Shown here: positions 1,370 through 36,138 of the stretch, piece by piece
Layout of the letters: every line of letters begins with the position of its first letter
How positions within the stretch are numbered: the stretch's first letter is position 1
Assembly (NCBI GenBank): GCA_024408565.1
Contig: JAKSUW010000009.1
Coordinates: 1 to 36,252, forward strand
DNA from: Bacilli bacterium
GTDB taxonomy: Bacteria; Bacillota_I; Bacilli_A; RFN20; CAG-826
DNA length: 36,252 nucleotides
Reading direction: 5' to 3'
Notes under the pieces: model-generated
What the model was told of the DNA's origin: nothing
The model's database searches: none
The model's input: the letters and a program-made list of their open reading frames with translations, nothing else
Made by a program: the position numbers and the translations under genes

Positions 1370-1426
1370 GTGGTATTTTAGTCTAGGGGAAATTTTGGGG
1401 AAAATCTTTTAAATCAGTACTATTTA

Positions 1427-3280
1427 TTAGATGCAAAAAGCGGGCGCAACAGCGAACGCACCACCGTAAACGTCGACGCTGCTGAGGTAGCCACCGCCAC
1501 GGACATTCCACGCGTAATAACTGAAATCAGTACAAGGCGAGCGGAGCCAGTAATATTCTCCACCACCACCAACTTTCGTTTTAATTCTATCTGCTTGATT
1601 TGGATGATCAATATAGTATTGATATTTAGTGCCTTCATCTTGAACGACATAATCATCATGATCTACCATTTCATCATGTGCTAAAGGGAAAAGTTTTGGA
1701 TATTCACCAGTTTTAAAAGATTTTGCCTCATAATATTGTGCGCCTTCCCGTTTGCTTTCATTAACTCCAACTTTCTTATCAGATGGTTTAATGACATCTT
1801 TTAAATCATCAGGAAGTCGATTAATTATACTGTCCACACCACTAGTCTCATCATTTAAAGCTTTATTAAGTACTGAACTACGATAATCAAAGTTATCACC
1901 ACTTGTGTCAGGTATTCCATCCCAAATAGTGGTATATGCATCAGTAGGAGTAGTAGTGCCTTTAGTAATTACATTCTTAAATTCAAAAGTAATGCCTAAA
2001 TTATTTCCGTTTATATCTTTATCATGATTAAAATCAATAATTCTTACCGTGTGGGTAAAGTTTTGCTTAGTACGTGTATTAATATCAGAACTAATATCAA
2101 ATAAATTAACTTCTTTTTCATCTCCTACTTTAAATGCTTCAGGGGCATTACCTGCTTTAGATATTGTTTCTATTTGTGACCAGCTACATTCTTCTAATGT
2201 TTTATACATATCACAAGTACCAGTTACAACTGTATTTTGTTGAAGATTAATGACTAATTCACCTTTATCTTTATTAAATATATAATCAGTGTACGCTCCA
2301 CCATTTAATGTCACATCACTCGGTTTCATATAAACACTATCGCTAACCGTTACTACAAATTTAACGTAATATGGATTAACGCCTTGTGGAACTACAATGT
2401 TAACTCCGGTAGTAGCATCAACCGGATCACCATTATATGTCATAGAACAATTATCAATATTAAATTTCACGTTATAAGTTGTTCCAACCGTCGATTCCCA
2501 TTTAGCGTAAATATAAGTTTCTGCTTTAATTTCGGTTTTAAAGTCAAAAACTGCTGCTCCTGTTTCACTAGGTTTTTTATTATACCAATTAACAAAATTA
2601 TAATCGGCTTTGGTAGGCTTATAATAAGGAGCGTTATTACCATAGGTAACTGCTTCTTGTTTAAGTTCACTAATTCCATCTTCTTCCATATAATGAACAA
2701 TTGGTTTAGCAATTTCTCCCCATTTCGCGTGTAAGAAATAATCTGTAACAACGTCGGTTCCTGTGGGACCAAATTTAAATTCTTGGCCTCCTCCATCTGG
2801 CTCGGTATACCATTTCACTTGCGAAGCATCATATCCATCTCTAGAGATGATAGGAGCGGTAGTGATAGGGTCACCATCGGGCAAATTCTCTAGGATAGTT
2901 TTACCAGTAATTGTCCCGCCAGTAGGATCTAAGTGAATAGTGTGAGTAACGCCTGGTTGAGGAGTATGAGTAGCTTCGACTCTTAGTTCAATATCGTTTT
3001 TCATTTCGCTAATGGTTATTACACCATTGGAAGGATTATATTCAACGCCTTCAACCGTTTCGGGTAGTTCATAACCAGCATAAGGAACAATTGTGTATTG
3101 TATATTTTTATCTTTTTCAAAAATCTCATGCGAATAATCAGTTTCACCGTTAATTGTGCAATTCCTTCCAAAGAAATGAAAAGTATGGGTAACATCTACA
3201 ACTGGAGGAGTCGATCCACCACAACTCGCTAAAAACGATATCGCCATCACTGGCATTAATAATAGACCTAGTTTTTTCAT
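1427..3280 (-). CDS. surface lipoprotein with InlB-type repeats and a C-terminal DUF6273 domain
   Basis: A 617-residue exported lipoprotein. The signal peptide MKKLGLLLMPVMAISFLASC has a canonical LASC lipobox with Cys20. Residues of roughly 30-110 form beta-rich sequence. Two InlB-B/Listeria-Bacteroides repeats follow at about 115-270, each ending in a HAKW or YAKW motif. From about 365 to the end the pattern WSQIETISKAG...FKVGD...VRIIDFNHD...YYWLRSP...AFCI is that of DUF6273, which I recognise from surface proteins of gut Firmicutes; its ligand is unknown. The start is fixed by AGAGGT nine bases upstream. The last 41 codons (1552-1430) contain none ending in A and are about 57 percent GC, far above the rest of the gene. 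It shares its promoter and signal-peptide cassette with the genes at 3447 and 7026. Confidence 0.85.
   Translation of the reverse strand: MKKLGLLLMPVMAISFLASCGGSTPPVVDVTHTFHFFGRNCTINGETDYSHEIFEKDKNIQYTIVPYAGYELPETVEGVEYNPSNGVITISEMKNDIELRVEATHTPQPGVTHTIHLDPTGGTITGKTILENLPDGDPITTAPIISRDGYDASQVKWYTEPDGGGQEFKFGPTGTDVVTDYFLHAKWGEIAKPIVHYMEEDGISELKQEAVTYGNNAPYYKPTKADYNFVNWYNKKPSETGAAVFDFKTEIKAETYIYAKWESTVGTTYNVKFNIDNCSMTYNGDPVDATTGVNIVVPQGVNPYYVKFVVTVSDSVYMKPSDVTLNGGAYTDYIFNKDKGELVINLQQNTVVTGTCDMYKTLEECSWSQIETISKAGNAPEAFKVGDEKEVNLFDISSDINTRTKQNFTHTVRIIDFNHDKDINGNNLGITFEFKNVITKGTTTPTDAYTTIWDGIPDTSGDNFDYRSSVLNKALNDETSGVDSIINRLPDDLKDVIKPSDKKVGVNESKREGAQYYEAKSFKTGEYPKLFPLAHDEMVDHDDYVVQDEGTKYQYYIDHPNQADRIKTKVGGGGEYYWLRSPCTDFSYYAWNVRGGGYLSSVDVYGGAFAVAPAFCI
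1430..1552 (-). other. GC-rich, adenine-poor C-terminal segment of the first DUF6273 gene (possible variable region)
   Basis: Forty-one consecutive codons, from TAC (Y) to ATC (I), end in C, T or G, never A. By hand count 70 of 123 bases are G or C. The run GGC TAC CTC AGC AGC GTC GAC consists entirely of NNC codons. This is the kind of composition seen where AAC codons of a template have been diversified. No template or reverse transcriptase lies in the window, so this is a hypothesis. Confidence 0.35.
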
Positions 3281-3298
3281 AGATGTAACCTCTATCTA

Positions 3299-3430
3299 TT
3301 TTTATTATACATTATTGTAGTTAAAAAATACCCTAGACTAAGGCTTGGGGAAAAGTTTTGGGGAAAATCTTTTAAACCACTACTATTTATTGATTAATAG
3401 TACTCTATTTAGTAAGCGTATGAATTTATT
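3299..3430 (-). repeat. intergenic repeat copy A: 3' tail, weak terminator and promoter
   Basis: About 130 bases nearly identical to 6869-7000. On the minus strand the order is an AAATTC..TACGCTTACTAAATAG block, an ACTATT/AATAGT inverted repeat, two TTTTCCCC runs, a CCTTAGTCTAGGGTATTTTTT terminator-like element (one stem pair lost compared with the other copies), and a TATAAT -10 box at 3309-3304 serving the gene that starts at 3280. Confidence 0.8.
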
Positions 3431-3446
3431 AATACTTAGATATTAA

Positions 3447-6400
3447 TTAGATACAGAAAGCCGCCGCGCAACCATTAAAATCAATATAAGTAACACCAGA
3501 ATGGAAACTGCCATTGCTGCGAACACCATAAACGTAATGGTCATTTTTACTATATTGATTGTATGTTCTAGTGTAATAGAATTCACAGGCACTACTACCA
3601 ACTGGATGTCGTGGACGCTCCGCATCAGTAGGATGAGCAACATAATAAGGATATGGATATCCTTCCTGTATTTTGTCGCATTTTGATAGTTTTCCATAAT
3701 ATTCTCCGACCGATAACGCCCATATTTTGCGATCAATTTGCACTTCAGACCTATCAATGCCGGTAGCATCATGAACGCATTCTTTTTTTACCTCTTTAAT
3801 AATGTTCCGCAAATCAGAAGAAATTTTCCCGTAAAAAACCTCGTTAAGATAGATATCACAATTATCAACACCGAAGTCTTTACTATCTGTATCATACGAG
3901 GTCTTCCCCATCCGTACTTTGTGAGCAACACCTTTTTTATCCGATATTAATTCTACGAATTCAATCGTTAAACCAGCCATTTTTTTAGAATCCGATGTTA
4001 ACGGATCGTGATAAGTACCAATAACGCGGCGTGTGTAGGGTAAATCACCCATCGAAGCATTTCTTTCATCACCGGGTTTAAAAATTTTATCAGCATAACC
4101 TGAAGTAGCGAGTTCGCCTATCTGTTGCCACGTGGAGTTGTCTTCAGCAAAAACATTCACACCTGGATGAAAAATATCAACTTCAATCGTATCGATGTCA
4201 GAATGAGATTTAATCGTAATCGTCATATTCGATGAATCATATTCAAGAATGCCAGGATACGCTGCAACAAATGTAGTGTAATCGCACCATGCTAGACCGT
4301 TCGGTTTGATAAGTAAATTATCGTTTCTCACAGCAATATCATCAATGGCAAATGATAACGGATCGGCGCTTCTAGCGACATCACCTTCTTTTGTTTTTGC
4401 GCCATCAACCTTAACACCAAAACCATTGATTTTATAATGGTAACTACTTAACGATAAAGCCTTGGCTGTCACTTTTAAATTATCAGTGACATAGGAAGAG
4501 AAAATAGTTACTTCGGCCGTACTAGCTTGCGACTCACCGCCTTCATTAACAACTTGATAAGCATCGGAGGGAAGAGGTTCAGTCGAATCATTACCGACGT
4601 AAATATTTAAATTAGTCGGAACATAATAGTCGTCATCAGCTGTTAAAGTAAATATAAAATCATCACCCATCAGTGGTTTAGGCATCGTAGGAGAATATGT
4701 TGCTGTTAAATGTTCGCCCACAAATTCAAATTCAAATTCCGGATGATAATCATTGACCGTGATAGTGATTGCTCCATCCGGGAGCGAGGAGGCACTAATC
4801 AATAAAGAATGATTATCATACGAATATATAAGCGACGTGATTTTCTCACCATCACCATTAGTGACAGTAAAATATTTTTCAACTTCACTATAAGTACAAC
4901 TTGGGGGATATTCAAATCGTTTTTCATCAAGTAAGTTAAAATAGACAGTCACTTGTTGAATTTTGCTCTCAACGATAGTGAAATTAGTTGACTCGATGGC
5001 TAATGACTCGCTATTTAACATTATTTTGTGAGTGAAATAAACAGCGTAAACATCGGTCAAAGTGTCTTCCCCAATGGTAATTTCGCTCGGATCAATTATT
5101 GCACTTCCGTCTTCTTTAAACGACCAACCAATAAAAGAGTATTCATTGCTGGTAGCAATTTGTGTCGCCTCATCAACGTAATAATTCCATTTATGGCCGT
5201 AAGCCATTTCAATTGTTTCTTTAGCATCAGGCCCTAATTTTTCCCCTATTTGATTAACATGGAATGTAATTTGTTTTGTTAATATCTGTTCAGTCGTAAT
5301 GGAAATACTTTCGATATCGTCACTTACAACTTCGATGTTAAGTAGGCCATCACTTTTATTTCTAATTATTGCCGCTTCAGTTGGTGTCGCTACCATTGAT
5401 TTAATTTGATATCCACTATCTAGGTGATAATTGATATCAAACTCTTTGCTTGAATTTGTTGCGTAGAGAAAACTTGAAACTGACGGCGTAATATGATCAT
5501 CGGCATAGATTGGAACTGATTTAGCGTTAGGCACAAGACCAATAACTGGTGTGATATTAATATCGTCATTCACCAAAGGCGTAATTTTGATTGTGCCTTC
5601 ATCAATTTCGTAGCTAACGCTATTTTCTGGCTCAACGGTAAAGCTTTTAACTTCGTATAAGTTATCGATGTCATATTGGAAAGTCTGTTGAGTAAAATCA
5701 TCCTTGCTAAATGATAGGACAATAGTTTTGGTGTCAAAATGATCCGCTCTTCTAACACGAACGACATAATCGGTGTTCTTTTTGATTATAGGAGTAATTG
5801 AAAAATTAGTATTTTCTTTAGGAGTAATGGCGATTTCTTTATCGGTAAAAGTGCAAGTAGCGGCATCAGAAGGAGAAACAGTAATACTATCAATTAAGTA
5901 GTTATTATCGATAGTATAGCCAAGATTTAATTGATCAAATTGGCCTTCGTTGAATGATAAGTATGATGCGCTGGCGTGGAAATGGCGATTTTCGGAAGCA
6001 ACATTGACAATATAACTAGATAACTCAATCATCGAGGGTTTAATCGTAAAATTAGCATTAACTTTTGGAGTAACAATAATTTGGTTGTCGTTATGAATAC
6101 AAGTTGCGCTACCAATAGGAGTAACTGCAATATCGGCAATTTTATAATCAGCAGTAGCTACATAGGCAAACTTAATCGGACTATACACATTTTCTATAAA
6201 AGTTAAAGATGCTGTTTCGGTATCAAAGTGTTCATCGCTCGCATCAATAGTAATTGTGTACTTGCGCGGAATTCTTTTTGTTATTGGTGTAATCGTAAAA
6301 TCGGCATTTTGTTTCGGCGTAATGGTTACTTTATCATCGGTAAAAGCGCAAGTGGCAACATTAAATTGACTAACGCTGAATCTATCAATTACATAGTCAT

Positions 6401-6854
6401 CTTCAATCGTATAATCAAAGGTTATTGGGTCAAAGTTGTCTTTCTTAAAAGATAACGATGTCGTCTCAGTATGAAAATGCTGGTCGCTTGTATCAATAGT
6501 AATTGTGTAATTATGAATAGTTGGTTCTAATGTCGGTATAATTGTAAAATCAGCGTTAACTTTCGGGGTAATCGTTATCTTTTTCTCCTCTTCATCATGC
6601 ACACAATCAGCACTCCCGGTTGGATCGGTATCAATATGAGTAATGATATAATCAGGGTCAGTTGTATACGCAAAAGTAATGGGACTAAAATCGTCTTCTT
6701 CAAAAGTTAATGAAGTTTCAGCAGGATGAAAATGTTGGTCGCTTGTGTTAACCGTAATTGTGTATGTCTTTTTAGGAATCGGACCATCTTTAGCACAACT
6801 CGATAAAAGCGGCATGATTATCAATGACATTACTAGTAACCCTAGTTTTTTCAT
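3447..6854 (-). CDS. large lipoprotein with about six beta-repeats, an InlB-like segment and a C-terminal DUF6273 domain
   Basis: The likely start is the ATG at 6854 (MKKLGLLVM..., 1135 residues), preceded by GAGG nine bases upstream, as in its two paralogues; the in-frame ATG at 6869 lies upstream of that ribosome site. Signal peptide with lipobox LSSC, Cys20. Residues of about 30-510 hold about six copies of an 80-residue unit with the pattern HFxxxxxSLSF..F.PITFxY...Y.I......P...A.......I.ITPK.N..F.ITP; the first three are the most alike. A single InlB-like segment (YSFIGWSF...DVYAVYF) follows at about 515-600, then further beta-rich domains, and DUF6273 from about 900 to the AFCI end. The final 32 codons (3545-3450) contain none ending in A. 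This is probably a surface-anchored binding protein; the ligand is unknown. Confidence 0.85.
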   Translation of the reverse strand: MKKLGLLVMSLIIMPLLSSCAKDGPIPKKTYTITVNTSDQHFHPAETSLTFEEDDFSPITFAYTTDPDYIITHIDTDPTGSADCVHDEEEKKITITPKVNADFTIIPTLEPTIHNYTITIDTSDQHFHTETTSLSFKKDNFDPITFDYTIEDDYVIDRFSVSQFNVATCAFTDDKVTITPKQNADFTITPITKRIPRKYTITIDASDEHFDTETASLTFIENVYSPIKFAYVATADYKIADIAVTPIGSATCIHNDNQIIVTPKVNANFTIKPSMIELSSYIVNVASENRHFHASASYLSFNEGQFDQLNLGYTIDNNYLIDSITVSPSDAATCTFTDKEIAITPKENTNFSITPIIKKNTDYVVRVRRADHFDTKTIVLSFSKDDFTQQTFQYDIDNLYEVKSFTVEPENSVSYEIDEGTIKITPLVNDDINITPVIGLVPNAKSVPIYADDHITPSVSSFLYATNSSKEFDINYHLDSGYQIKSMVATPTEAAIIRNKSDGLLNIEVVSDDIESISITTEQILTKQITFHVNQIGEKLGPDAKETIEMAYGHKWNYYVDEATQIATSNEYSFIGWSFKEDGSAIIDPSEITIGEDTLTDVYAVYFTHKIMLNSESLAIESTNFTIVESKIQQVTVYFNLLDEKRFEYPPSCTYSEVEKYFTVTNGDGEKITSLIYSYDNHSLLISASSLPDGAITITVNDYHPEFEFEFVGEHLTATYSPTMPKPLMGDDFIFTLTADDDYYVPTNLNIYVGNDSTEPLPSDAYQVVNEGGESQASTAEVTIFSSYVTDNLKVTAKALSLSSYHYKINGFGVKVDGAKTKEGDVARSADPLSFAIDDIAVRNDNLLIKPNGLAWCDYTTFVAAYPGILEYDSSNMTITIKSHSDIDTIEVDIFHPGVNVFAEDNSTWQQIGELATSGYADKIFKPGDERNASMGDLPYTRRVIGTYHDPLTSDSKKMAGLTIEFVELISDKKGVAHKVRMGKTSYDTDSKDFGVDNCDIYLNEVFYGKISSDLRNIIKEVKKECVHDATGIDRSEVQIDRKIWALSVGEYYGKLSKCDKIQEGYPYPYYVAHPTDAERPRHPVGSSACEFYYTRTYNQYSKNDHYVYGVRSNGSFHSGVTYIDFNGCAAAFCI
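3450..3545 (-). other. adenine-poor C-terminal segment of the second DUF6273 gene (possible variable region)
   Basis: The last 32 sense codons run from AAT to ATC; thirty end in T or C and two are GCG. Aligned from the stop with the tail of the neighbouring paralogue, V-R, G and the final AFCI are kept, while most residues between them differ. Its GC content is lower than that of the first tail. Confidence 0.35.
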
Positions 6855-6868
6855 AGATTTTAACCTCA

Positions 6869-7000
6869 TTTTTATTATACATCATTGTAGTTAAAAAATA
6901 CCCTAGACTAGGGCTTGGGGGAAAATTTGGGGAAAAATCTTTTAAACCGCTACTATTTATCGATTAATAGTACTCTATTTAGTAAGCGTAGGAATTTATT
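6869..7000 (-). repeat. intergenic repeat copy B: 3' tail, terminator and promoter
   Basis: Second copy of the repeat at 3299-3430. The terminator CCCTA-GTC-TAGGG followed by TATTTTTT lies at 6913-6893 and ends the transcript of the leucine-rich-repeat lipoprotein gene. TATAAT at 6879-6874 begins the next one. The cassette continues into the signal-peptide coding sequence of the gene starting at 6854. Confidence 0.8.
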
Positions 7001-7025
7001 AGAAGGCAAATAATAGCGAACTCTT

Positions 7026-8411
7026 TTAGTCTTTAAATAGAATTTTCTGTTTCCCTGGCCAATGATATTTATCAAGGCTATTTGGCCAACCTTTACTGCT
7101 ATTTTTAAACTTATTTGCCACCTCTTCACTAGCAACTTCAAATGTAACTGGGCAATTAAAAAAAGCGCTAGTGGCACAAGTAGGTATTTCATCTTGAGTA
7201 GTAAAATTAGTTAAATCTACATTAGTAAGAGCATTACAAGGATAGAAAGCGTCATCACCGATTGAAGTAACGCTATTAGGGATAGTGACAGAGTTAAGAG
7301 AACTACAAGAAGAGAAGGCGCAACTGGCAATTGAAGTAATGCTACTAGGAATGATGATGGAAGTAAGGGAAGAACAACCATTGAAAGCAAAATTGCCCAT
7401 AGAAGTAACGCTATTAGGGATAATAATAGACGCAAGAGAGGAACAATTATAGAAAGCGGAGCCACCGATGGAAGTAACGCTATTAGGGATAATAATAGAC
7501 GCAAGAGAATAGCAATTAAAGAAAGCTTTATCGCTAATTGAAGTAATATAATTGCCTAAATATATACTTGTAACATAGTTATTACAATCATAACCAAGCA
7601 AAAGTTTTAAATTGACAATATTATCAATTATTATTTTATAATCGCCTGGATTATCATAAGTATGAGAAGCATATGCATTAGCGGTTTTGCCATCTCCCCA
7701 ATCGACTTTAATAGTCTTTGTTGCTTTTGCAGTATAATCAAATTCAAATTTATAGTCATCGGCTTTCTCAGGAATTGAAATATCAATGGTTGTATAACTA
7801 GGGATATAGACTGCTTCATAAGTCGTTGATTCGCTCGCTGGCACAATTTCAGGAGACCAACCACCAAAAGTGTATACGTGTTCGCCTTCATTAGGTCTAG
7901 TAGGAGTTTTTCCATCATAATGAGGCATATCACCTTTCTGAACATTTTCATCAACTTCTAAGACATCGTCATTATAATTTACCCAAGTAATGGTATAAGT
8001 AGGAACTACTGGTAATTTAACACCAATATTTTCGATTTTTGCCTCGCCTTCTTTCTTAGCGATTTTATCGTTGTAATGAAATTTTAAATCGCCAATATCA
8101 TCTTTGCTTAAAGGGCTAGCGAAGGTAACAGTTAAATTGAAAGGGGGAAAGCCGACCTCTTCTATAGGAGTTACGGTGGCGCTAATGCTTTGACTACGAA
8201 GAGCAAAAGTAAAAGCACGGCATTCAATCGAACGGTCGATTGGTGTCCAATCTAAAGTAATATTCGCTATTGTTTTAGATTCATCTAGCGTAACCGAAGT
8301 ATCTGCACTAAATTTAACATCTTCGGTTGGTTCAGGTTTATTACCGCCACCACAACTCGCTAAAAGAGAGATCGCCATTAATGGCATTACTAATAAACCT
8401 AGTTTTTTCAT
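7026..8411 (-). CDS. lipoprotein with PKD-like segment and BspA-type leucine-rich repeats
   Basis: The start is taken as ATG 8411 (461 residues), because GAGG lies nine bases before it; the in-frame ATG at 8426 precedes that site. Signal peptide MKKLGLLVMPLMAISLLASC with lipobox LASC, Cys20. It continues with a beta-rich region, an InlB-like stretch (TFGGWSPEIV, YEAVYI) at about 145-205, and a PKD-like motif VDWGDGKTANAYASHTYDNPGDY at about 230-252. About five LRR_5 units of 23 residues (SLASIIIPNSVTSIGGSAFYNCS type) follow to about 405, with a short tail without DUF6273. BspA-like repeats are known in surface adhesins. Downstream of the stop, TTCGCTATTATTTGCCTTCTAATAAAT resembles the 3' end of the DUF6273 paralogues, so the gene may be a recombinant that lost that tail. 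Confidence 0.85.
   Translation of the reverse strand: MKKLGLLVMPLMAISLLASCGGGNKPEPTEDVKFSADTSVTLDESKTIANITLDWTPIDRSIECRAFTFALRSQSISATVTPIEEVGFPPFNLTVTFASPLSKDDIGDLKFHYNDKIAKKEGEAKIENIGVKLPVVPTYTITWVNYNDDVLEVDENVQKGDMPHYDGKTPTRPNEGEHVYTFGGWSPEIVPASESTTYEAVYIPSYTTIDISIPEKADDYKFEFDYTAKATKTIKVDWGDGKTANAYASHTYDNPGDYKIIIDNIVNLKLLLGYDCNNYVTSIYLGNYITSISDKAFFNCYSLASIIIPNSVTSIGGSAFYNCSSLASIIIPNSVTSMGNFAFNGCSSLTSIIIPSSITSIASCAFSSCSSLNSVTIPNSVTSIGDDAFYPCNALTNVDLTNFTTQDEIPTCATSAFFNCPVTFEVASEEVANKFKNSSKGWPNSLDKYHWPGKQKILFKD
7213..7515 (-). repeat. 69-bp tandem coding repeats encoding BspA-type LRRs
   Basis: The plus-strand string GTAACGCTATTAGGGATA recurs at 7405 and 7474, exactly 69 bases apart, with further diverged copies towards 7213. 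Each unit encodes 23 residues. Copies are close enough at DNA level to allow slippage changes in repeat number. Confidence 0.85.
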
Positions 8412-8430
8412 AAATGAAAACCTCATTTTT

Positions 8431-8482: not shown

Positions 8483-10018
8483 CTACTTGTTCGCTTGCGC
8501 TAACATGTAAGCCATAAAGCAGGAAGTAGCTTGGATATGGGCATCGACAATACCATCAGGATCAAAACCATAGAAGAGTATAACTAATAATGAAGTGGTA
8601 ATATCGCTTATCAAAGTCGTGACAAACGGTTTATAAGATTCGATAAGTCCAAGAATAGTTTCTAATGATATTTCAGGTAAATCCATAACCTGCCCTATTA
8701 TTGGCATCAATATTGATGGACGGAGAGTATATTGCACGTACCACTTAGAAGTGGAACTATCTTGTTTAACCTCATCAACATAAAAAACGTTTTGCATGGG
8801 TGATGGATATGAGTGTATTTGTTGTAGTAAGTCTGTACGACAAGCTTCCGCGCTATCTTGACTATCAAAATACTCAGCATCTAGATTCGTGCCGTCTTCA
8901 TCATAATGGTAATCACGGTATTCGTAAATAGTGTTACGATTACAAGCCTTGTCCTTAGTGCAAATAGAATTTAGACAGTCAATTAATGCGTTAATTACCG
9001 CATCTTCACAATAATGATATTCTTTGCCAAAAAAAGTTTTGTATTGTGTTGCGTAAGTCTTCGCCACAGAAAGGGAAACATCTTGTCCAAAACGATGAAA
9101 ACCCATTTCGGTAGTGGGCACCGCTGAAATAAGATCGTCATCATTAAGAATATTAAAAATAGTTTTGTATTGGTCATTAACGGTAGATTTAATTATGGCA
9201 GTGTTATTCGGTGTGTTATATGCATAGGCCCGCACTGTATAACTCTTATCAATTAGGCTACGCGCCATAAGATTAGCAACGGCAGCGCCTCGAGAATGAC
9301 CGGTGATAAAGAAGATTGGTTTTGTGTCTTCTATTTTATGTTCGTCATAATATTGGAGAACGGCTTCTAAAATACGATTAGTCGTTACATCGAAGCCCTT
9401 ATGATTATTTTTGTCTTTCCAATCAGAATGTTCTCCAGGTGAAAATTCTTGATAAGCCTCTGTCTCCGCACCAACATCAAAATCGGACATAAAACCTTTA
9501 CTTGGACCATTCACATAAGAATGATTGTTAACAAAAAACACTTGGTAAGTATTATTTTCATTGATAAAAGTGTTATGCCCCATAATGACATTATCAACGT
9601 CATAAGGATCATCAGAACTAGACTGATATTTACTAGCAACATCAATATATGTAATATCTTGGCAACCAACTTGGGCCATAACTTTGGAAGCAGGGTCAGC
9701 GATAGGAGAATAGGCAGGCGTAAAATCAGGTTTTGTAGCGGAAAATTCGTTAATTAAATACGCACCTAATAAACCTAAATTAGGGTCATACTTTTCTTTT
9801 AAGAAGTTACGATAGTCCATCGCAAAAGACATTGTTTGCGAATAACCACCATCTTGAGTCAATCGAACTTTATATGTATTGTCATCTGGTGCCGGATCTA
9901 GTTCGTTGATAATGCCATCATAATCACGGTCAGGACCGTTAGCTGGTGCTTTGCACCCTAAAAGTGAAGAAATCGAAAAGCAAGCTAGAATAGTGATGGG
10001 AATAATCGACTTCTTCAT
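8483..10018 (-). CDS. lipase-like alpha/beta hydrolase lipoprotein with an N-terminal calcium-binding-like motif
   Basis: A 511-residue exported protein with signal peptide and lipobox LLGC (Cys22). DRDYDGIINELDPAPDDN at about 30-47 is a thrombospondin type-3-like calcium-binding motif. The main domain resembles class 3 lipases: PIFFITGHSRGAAVANLMA places the nucleophile elbow at G240-H-S242-R-G, and NILNDDDLISAVP at about 289-301 carries the likely catalytic Asp. It probably hydrolyses an ester outside the membrane; the substrate cannot be read. It starts seven bases after the lysS stop and may be the last gene of that operon. The stop is TAG, followed by a terminator. Confidence 0.8.
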   Translation of the reverse strand: MKKSIIPITILACFSISSLLGCKAPANGPDRDYDGIINELDPAPDDNTYKVRLTQDGGYSQTMSFAMDYRNFLKEKYDPNLGLLGAYLINEFSATKPDFTPAYSPIADPASKVMAQVGCQDITYIDVASKYQSSSDDPYDVDNVIMGHNTFINENNTYQVFFVNNHSYVNGPSKGFMSDFDVGAETEAYQEFSPGEHSDWKDKNNHKGFDVTTNRILEAVLQYYDEHKIEDTKPIFFITGHSRGAAVANLMARSLIDKSYTVRAYAYNTPNNTAIIKSTVNDQYKTIFNILNDDDLISAVPTTEMGFHRFGQDVSLSVAKTYATQYKTFFGKEYHYCEDAVINALIDCLNSICTKDKACNRNTIYEYRDYHYDEDGTNLDAEYFDSQDSAEACRTDLLQQIHSYPSPMQNVFYVDEVKQDSSTSKWYVQYTLRPSILMPIIGQVMDLPEISLETILGLIESYKPFVTTLISDITTSLLVILFYGFDPDGIVDAHIQATSCFMAYMLAQANK

Positions 10019-34803: not shown

Positions 34804-34858
34804 GAAAAGACCTCCTATATAATGTTTTTACTTGTAATCCATTTAAGGAGGTATTTTC
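34804..34858 (+). promoter_or_regulatory. transposase promoter inside a ribosome-site-sequestering inverted repeat
   Basis: GAAAAGACCTCCT (34804-34816) and AGGAGGTATTTTC (34846-34858) are complementary at 12 of 13 positions, and the right arm is the transposase ribosome site. TATAAT (34818-34823) lies between the arms, so the element's own transcript should start near 34830 and lack the left arm. Transcripts entering from ppdK would contain both arms and hide the ribosome site. Confidence 0.6.
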
Positions 34859-34860
34859 AT

Positions 34861-36138
34861 ATGGATTTTAACACAATTTTATTAAGATTTGGATTAGATT
34901 CTTCTAACTTCAAAAACAAACTAGTTGAACCTATTCCTTTTGATGGGGGATTTATTTACGAAGTAGAACAAGAAATTAATGACAGAACATGCCCGATATG
35001 CGGAAATGTTCAAACACATATCCAAGGACATTATTTTACAAAAATAAATAGTTCATCAAATAACCACATTATGGATCAATTACGGATAAGAAGGACAGAA
35101 CTTTATTGTCCGAAATGTAAAAAGACATTTACACCGCCTATATTTGGAATAGATAAGAAAAACAAAACATCTAATTTCACTAAAGAATTAATCATGAAAG
35201 ACTTTACCGATAAGCTTACGTTCTCACAAATTGCTGATAAGTATCATTTAAGTAAAACGGGAGTAATTAAGTTATTTGATACTAAGGTTCCTTATGTTCC
35301 TAGAAGGAATATGCCTGAGGTTCTTTGTATTGATGAAATTAAATTTGAAGAAGACTGTTTAAATGAAAATAAATATATCGCTGTTTTAGTCGATTTTAAC
35401 GCGCGAGAGATAGTTGATATTATTCGAAGTAGAAGAATGCCATACCTAAGAGAATACTTCTCTAATATATCCTTTAAAGAACGCGAAAAGACGAAAGTAT
35501 TTATCTCGGATATGTATGATGCATACGCTGATATAAGAAGGATTTATTTTCCAAATGCGATTCATGTAGTTGACTTATTCCATGTGATTACCCAATTAAC
35601 TAATGCGGTTAATCGAATTAGAACTAGAGTTATGAATAATTATTGTTTAAAAGGAACCGTTGAATATAACTTTATGAAAAAGAATTGGAGATATTTCTTA
35701 TGCCGCAAGAGTCGAGTTCCTGATAAGTTTTATACCTATAAAAAGACAGGAGAGATGATTCATTATGATGAAATAATTAGAAGATGCTTAAAGACTGATC
35801 TTAATCTAGATGATGCTTATATGTGTTTACAAGAATTATTTCGTTATTCTGAATATGGAAGTTATGAAGATGCTTTAGATTTTGTTGAACGTATATCTAA
35901 GAAATTAATCTTCTTACCTAATCCATTACTTAAAGCAGTAGGAAGAACGTATCATAAATGGAGATACGAGATCGCTAATGGGTTTGATAAAAAGAGTAGA
36001 GATTTTCATTACACGAACGCAATCGCTGAAGGATTAAATAACCAACTAAAAACTATTACTAAATCAGCTTATGGTTATCATAACTTTGAAAGATTTAGAA
36101 AACGCGCTATGTTAATCCTTACTTATAGTAAAAAATAG
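34861..36138 (+). CDS. ISL3-family transposase
   Basis: 425 residues from ATG 34861, with AGGAGG nine bases upstream; an in-frame ATG at 34822 lies inside the -10 box and is not a start. N-terminal zinc finger with CPICG (about 44-48) and CPKCKKTF (about 81-88), a helix-turn-helix stretch LTFSQIADKYHLSKTGVIKLF, and the DDE domain: LCIDEIKFE, FISDMYDAY and HVVDLFHV, with the final Glu in YTNAIAEGLNNQLKTITKSAYG. The frame is intact. Codon use is more AT-rich than ppdK, consistent with recent arrival. Confidence 0.95.
   Translation: MDFNTILLRFGLDSSNFKNKLVEPIPFDGGFIYEVEQEINDRTCPICGNVQTHIQGHYFTKINSSSNNHIMDQLRIRRTELYCPKCKKTFTPPIFGIDKKNKTSNFTKELIMKDFTDKLTFSQIADKYHLSKTGVIKLFDTKVPYVPRRNMPEVLCIDEIKFEEDCLNENKYIAVLVDFNAREIVDIIRSRRMPYLREYFSNISFKEREKTKVFISDMYDAYADIRRIYFPNAIHVVDLFHVITQLTNAVNRIRTRVMNNYCLKGTVEYNFMKKNWRYFLCRKSRVPDKFYTYKKTGEMIHYDEIIRRCLKTDLNLDDAYMCLQELFRYSEYGSYEDALDFVERISKKLIFLPNPLLKAVGRTYHKWRYEIANGFDKKSRDFHYTNAIAEGLNNQLKTITKSAYGYHNFERFRKRAMLILTYSKK

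Follow-up and report, generated by a model that had tools for sequence, protein, structure and literature searches.

A lipoprotein gene of a gut Bacilli bacterium probably ends in an orphan variable region of a diversity-generating retroelement

Diversity-generating retroelements (DGRs) are systems that purposely scramble binding sites. We analyzed a stretch of DNA of 36,252 bp from a Bacilli bacterium (contig JAKSUW010000009.1, C26 in our numbering), here called the window, which is one whole contig of a genome of 929,526 bp in 26 contigs that is 91% complete. The window contains four consecutive lipoprotein-like genes, all on the minus strand, and two of these, gene 1 and gene 2, encode proteins in which a DUF6273 domain (Pfam PF19789) extends to the C-terminus. 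The original prediction, made from the letters of the window, was that the 3' tails of both genes are diversified by a retroelement. We conclude that the tail of gene 1 is probably (probability about 0.72) an orphan DGR variable region, either a remnant or a region targeted by a DGR that is mobile or missing. For gene 1 the prediction is supported by silence at third codon positions and by a match to template adenines; for gene 2, which has no such signature, it is not retained.

According to our interpretation, gene 1 would encode a surface lipoprotein, and its last ~123 bases, in the C-type-lectin-like DUF6273 domain, would form a variable region of the DGR type that adenine-directed mutagenic retrohoming wrote from a template at some time in this lineage. 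Ligand binding presumably varies as the displayed loop is altered. The DGR would then have been lost, leaving the tail as a frozen remnant, to which we give about two thirds of the weight; alternatively, the DGR may act in trans, encoded either on genome sequence absent from the assembly or by a mobile element such as a phage. Between a frozen tail and one still being rewritten in trans, we lean to the remnant. The lectin fold of gene 1 is proposed by analogy with DUF6273, which has been modelled as a C-type lectin fold (PMC10743442).

Codon composition of the two tails

The last 42 codons of gene 1 before the stop contain no codon with A in the third position (A3), one codon more than the 41 counted originally, and the same is true of the last 32 codons of gene 2, as originally noted. 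Elsewhere A3 codons are common (30% in gene 1 and 25% in gene 2) and the longest A3-free run is 16 codons in gene 1 and 18 codons in gene 2. The last 41 codons of gene 1 have a GC content of 56.9%, which agrees with the earlier figure of about 57% for one tail, compared with 36% for the whole gene and 37.6% for the window.

These features were tested against chance conditional on the amino acids and on the codon usage of the DUF6273 gene bodies of the same genome. In the gene 1 tail, 7.0 A3 codons were expected and none was observed (P 1.3e-4), and its last 41 codons contain 25 codons with G or C in the third position (GC3) where 12.8 were expected (z 4.4). The last 41 codons of gene 2 contain 4 A3 codons (6.5 expected) and 12 GC3 codons (11.1 expected), and its A3-free run of 32 codons has a P of 0.015 for a run length that was picked afterwards. 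The two tails have no third positions in common, consistent with the original statement that their synonymous third positions differ, and a comparison of tails across the genus found no relative that shares the third-position skeleton of gene 2. Gene 1 thus has a genuine compositional anomaly and gene 2 no convincing one, and present evidence does not justify calling the gene 2 tail a variable region.

Third-position silence and template adenines

We compared the gene 1 tail with its relatives in five genomes of the genus, namely its own and four congeners, which are 66-91% complete, none of them closed, and contain 4, 10, 1, 16, and 28 DUF6273 matches. The tail set consisted of the 53 DUF6273 genes that end in AFCI or the variant AFCV, giving 1378 pairs. 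Between YWLRSP and APAFCI these tails are extremely variable, and about 10-18 of the 53 have an A3 depletion and GC3 excess like those of gene 1. Within the aligned set, gene 1 has its closest relative, with 59% identity, in a 439-aa gene at locus L066 of a congeneric species (genome G004). Over 30 aligned tail codons the two genes differ at 46-47% of first, 33-36% of second, and 7% of third codon positions, whereas upstream of the tail the corresponding values are 38, 33, and 44%. Sixteen of 38 tail residues are changed, mostly at the first position and with many double changes. Among these changed codons the third position differs in only 2 of 16-17, compared with 58% upstream. For the 16 changed codons, 10.1 third-position changes were expected from gene-body codon usage (P 5e-5) and 9.4 from the tails' own Y-rich usage (P 2e-4). 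We take such third-position silence as the mechanism-specific sign of DGR writing.

Several observations in the same data weigh against this interpretation. Across all tail pairs the mean difference at codon positions 1, 2, and 3 is 0.68, 0.67, and 0.66. Crisp third-position silence occurs in one of the 1378 pairs, that of gene 1 and L066, and correction for all pairs would raise its P to about 0.07. We regard the pair as an a priori comparison because L066 is the closest relative. The even spread over codon positions in most of the 53 tails is what speaks for ordinary diversifying selection, in which point mutations would accumulate at the ligand-binding tip of a C-type-lectin-like DUF6273 domain without any retroelement, and the fold would fix R-S-P, A-W, V, G, V-Y, and A-P-A-F-C-I. 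This explanation is also favored by the failure to find a reverse transcriptase (RT) or template, described below, and by the fact that, at codon positions 1 and 2, template adenines match the variable columns even of pairs that lack third-position silence. It does not account for the rarity of third-position changes between gene 1 and L066, nor for the A3 depletion and GC3 excess of gene 1, which the amino acids leave unexplained, and we consider it unlikely.

We also considered whether the tail or 3' end of gene 1 was acquired by recombination with DNA of higher GC content, for example from a phage, another Bacillota, or another cassette, in which case its composition would reflect origin and not mutagenesis. 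The conserved 3' modules of sister-species paralogues described below could serve as recombination sites, and one nearly identical pair of tails would fit such exchange. This pair, L046 (G001) and L070 (G004), comes from two species and is identical at 29 of 30 tail residues, with upstream domains that are 80% identical; either recent transfer or a frozen tail would explain the likeness. Transfer alone, however, would not limit the differences between the tails of two species to codon positions 1 and 2, and recombination is the least probable of the explanations weighed here.

If the tails of gene 1 and L066 were both written from one template, then each difference between them marks an adenine in that template. 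The template inferred in this way, by hand, is CGC TCG CCT AAT AMT AAT AAY ART TAT AAC GCG TGG AAT GTC ART AAC GAT GGC AAC CTC ARC AAC AAC AAY GTT TAC ART AAT GCG TTC GCT GTT GC; it reads approximately RSPNTNNSYNAWNVNNDGNLNNNNVYNNAFAVAP, and the form to look for is CGCTCGCCTAAYAMTAAYAAYARTTATAACGCGTGGAAYGTC. The middle third of this template, in a generic form (TGGAAYGTNARYARYRAYGGYAAYNTNARY), served as a search pattern and matched 10 viral contigs and 13 genome stretches, the latter comprising 12 stretches with template repeats from metagenome-assembled genomes (MAGs) of Bacillota and locus L139. The L139 match lies within a long open reading frame (ORF) and was set aside as chance. All of the others have short frames and runs of AAC or AAT that translate into N-rich strings such as MRSPNTNNTNNAWNVNNNGNVNNNNVYNNANGVSP (L130) and VRSPNRNNSYNAWNVNNNGNVNNNNAYNTYAVLP (L133). 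Many of them adjoin RT genes with the DGR motif [IL]GxxxSQ (L124, L126-L129, L131, L134-L137, L141-L143), which indicates that the tails of two genomes without an RT retrieved real DGR templates from gut phages and gut Bacillota.

The differences between gene 1 and L066 also fall on the adenines of real templates. With the L130 template as a mask, differences between the tails occupy 24 of its 35 A positions and 2 of the 52 others (5e-11), a comparison that is partly circular; outside the 30 bases of the search pattern the counts are 16 of 23 and 2 of 34 (p 4.5e-7). The template at L113, in a genome of the same GTDB family (G053), was located through its RT and is thus independent of the pattern. 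It gives differences at 21 of 35 A positions and 6 of 67 non-A positions (p 7e-8). Restricted to codon positions 1 and 2, the L113 mask gives 9e-6, and against this other pairs of the family reach 3e-5. Because of these similar values we rejected the mask at positions 1 and 2 alone as proof, and the adenine match reflects in part a constraint of the fold on which positions can vary.

Missing machinery and known systems

With E values up to 10 allowed, the RVT_1 model found no RT in any of the five genomes of the genus. This extends to the assembled genome the earlier observation that the window holds none. The same model does detect DGR RTs elsewhere in the GTDB family, and it matched in 40 of 224 family genomes. 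No template for the gene 1 tail was found in its own genome with three or fewer mismatches beyond A changes, and searches of the five genomes with the inferred and the generic pattern, allowing up to 3 mismatches, found none either. An inverted-repeat scan after the gene 1 stop detected AT-rich palindromes only and no GC-rich hairpin or cruciform. Such a hairpin downstream of the variable region is required in BPP-1 (PMC3240598), and phage DGR targets have one after the stop where gene 1 does not. A complete DGR, with an RT and a cognate template in the genome, was not found in the 91%-complete assembly. All of these negative results count against a DGR origin of the tail. The original prediction had proposed a genome-wide search for RT and template and would have been given up had a complete genome held neither. 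The search found neither, here or in the four congeners, but this bears on the prediction only in part, as the assembly is incomplete and the genus genomes are not closed.

Since all five incomplete genomes are without an RT, simple assembly loss is an unlikely explanation for a resident RT and less unlikely for a mobile one. One version of our interpretation is that an active DGR has been missed and acts in trans on gene 1 and several other DUF6273 lipoproteins of the genus; its RT and template would then be carried by an unbinned phage or plasmid or fall within the ~9% of the genome that is unassembled. The other genus tails that share the composition of gene 1, the dispersed targets in related gut Bacilli described below, and the templates of the same type on viral contigs all fit such a system. 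Against it stand the five RT-less genomes and the paralogous tails of L066 and L067, which lie in one genome and share no third-position skeleton (43%), so that one active template does not serve both. We consider an active DGR possible but less probable than a remnant. A search with the genus DUF6273 alignment found no relatives in viral contigs, and DUF6273 matches in phage records were limited to two, both weak. Structural approaches were uninformative: a single-sequence AlphaFold model of the gene 1 domain had a mean pLDDT of 31, and a profile search of solved structures returned chance matches only.

DUF6273 is a known DGR target domain (PMC11792537, PMC10743442), and in Faecalibacterium prophages, where two DGRs are active, its C-terminus is the site of the variable region (PMC11792537). 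Gene 1 resembles these phage and prophage targets in having a putative adenine-directed variable region at the DUF6273 C-terminus. It differs in encoding a bacterial lipoprotein for which neither RT nor template was found, whereas the phage proteins have their own. Within the GTDB family, template and variable-region pairs were present at 8 of 15 inspected RT loci. L113, a complete chromosomal DGR of the Avd/TR/RT type, has the gene order lipoprotein target, bAvd (2.8e-16), template, and RT. Its RT carries the motifs MGNQSSQ and YMDD. The target lipoprotein, of 736 aa, combines DUF6273 (3.8e-22) with four Flg_new repeats, and 19 of 20 mismatches between template and target in the variable region are at A. 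Gene 1 is similar to this target in its Listeria-Bacteroides repeats and C-terminal DUF6273, in the length and register of the variable region, and in the mask of N codons in the template. Unlike gene 1, in whose genome no RT or template was found and Avd was not searched for, L113 has its bAvd, template, and RT no more than 4 kb away from the target.

Targets without nearby machinery have precedents. In Treponema denticola, some strains retain target lipoproteins but have neither RT nor template, and a left-over target retains its match, at adenines, to the other template type (PMC4891356). The likeness to gene 1 would include surface lipoproteins, a putative C-type-lectin variable region, remote targets, and RT-less remnants; the domain and phylum differ, and in T. 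denticola the DGR is present in further strains of the species. Targets far from their template also exist in related gut Bacilli, because the target at L181 sits on a contig other than that of its genome's template, with mismatches at 17 of 29 A positions and 2 of 71 non-A positions. Gut Bacilli MAGs with DGR templates (L134, L136, L138, L141-L146) contain 1-29 DUF6273 genes spread across contigs (29 in G244), and some of the encoded proteins have type IV prepilin-like N-termini (GFTLIELLAVIVILAVIALIAVP). This suggests large repertoires of remote DGR targets in these genomes.

Gene neighborhood, repeats, and implications

The features of the window are listed in the table. Among them, a GC-rich block at the 3' end of the putative variable region occupies the place of the initiation of mutagenic homing (IMH) element of a DGR. 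An Rfam scan identified a tmRNA gene at the start of the window and, in all of the searched loci, tmRNA and tRNA only. At the other end of the window (34822-36138) is a transposase-like gene, seemingly of the ISL3 kind as judged from its sequence.

Table. Coordinates of lipoprotein genes, tail features, and repeats in the window
Feature	Position	Strand	Description and basis
Gene 1	1427..3280	-	617-aa lipoprotein; MKKLGLLLMPVMAISFLASCGG signal with lipobox, Listeria-Bacteroides repeats, C-terminal DUF6273; ORF, Pfam Flg_new E 6.9e-9
DUF6273 domain of gene 1	1430..1897	-	aa 462-617; Pfam PF19789 positions 29-170 of 172, E 1.1e-11
Putative DGR variable region of gene 1	1430..1552	-	TGG-CTC-CGC-TCG-CCT through last codon; no A-ending codon, 57% GC
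GC-rich block GCGTTCGCTGTTGCGCCCGCT	1439..1459	-	3' end of gene 1 variable region; putative IMH; read from sequence
Gene 2	3447..6869	-	1140-aa DUF6273 lipoprotein paralogue; ORF, Pfam DUF6273 E 1.9e-8
Gene 2 tail	3450..3545	-	no A3 in 32 codons; neither composition nor skeleton gives significant evidence of a variable region
BspA-type LRR lipoprotein	7026-8426	-	third of the four lipoprotein-like genes
Lipase-like lipoprotein	8483-10018	-	named from reading of the sequence, with no search match behind the name
3'-flank repeat	1390..1428		common to 3353-3391 and 6923-6961; direct repeat D7; no GC-rich DGR-cruciform hairpin (inverted-repeat scan)
134-nt intergenic repeat	3298..3431		93% identity to 6868-7001; separates lipoprotein genes; direct repeat D3

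The intergenic repeats of the window differ in sequence from a repeat found in sister species (G004 and G003). There, gene arrays at L185 (G004:C5:1-19000), L186 (G004:C50), and L187 (G003:C6) are split every ~1-4 kb by a conserved repeat of ~95 bp. The array genes encode DUF6273 and BspA-LRR lipoproteins, a GH43 protein, Fic proteins, and AAA_14/DUF4143 ATPases. They run in both directions, and the repeat keeps a single orientation throughout, a cassette-like arrangement. Its end has the form GGTGCC-TTTCCGTTAGTC-GGCACC, and its copies are mostly 88-95% identical and have no Rfam match. We did not adopt a reading of these repeats as integron attC sites; inspection by eye revealed no RYYYAAC...GTTRRRY core sites, nor did we see an integrase. 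Three DUF6273 paralogues of G004 (L066, L067, and L076) have conserved 3' modules, in which the last 18 nt are 83-100% alike and the first 123 nt past the stop 88-95% alike, and a short hairpin, AGTGCTA-ATT-TAGCACT, follows the stop. Similarity falls to 52-68% in the tails and upstream bodies of these genes, for which the random baseline is 56-60%.

A broader and distinctly speculative idea, to which we give little credence, is that the genus diversifies a large DUF6273 lipoprotein repertoire, of which each genome has 1-28 copies and some copies stand in cassette-like arrays with repeats of one orientation, through a trans-acting or mobile DGR or through an RT-less successor mechanism that acts on old variable regions.

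If gene 1 does carry an orphan DGR variable region, DGR-diversified surface lipoproteins would extend to a genus of small-genome gut Bacilli, which would provide a clear case of targets without machinery. The inferred template of two orphan tails retrieved real DGR templates, suggesting that this approach can find such orphans elsewhere. Should an RT be found on a phage or plasmid, it would become possible to test whether a mobile element diversifies the surface proteins of its host. Should none ever be found, the orphan tails would be datable fossils of DGRs.

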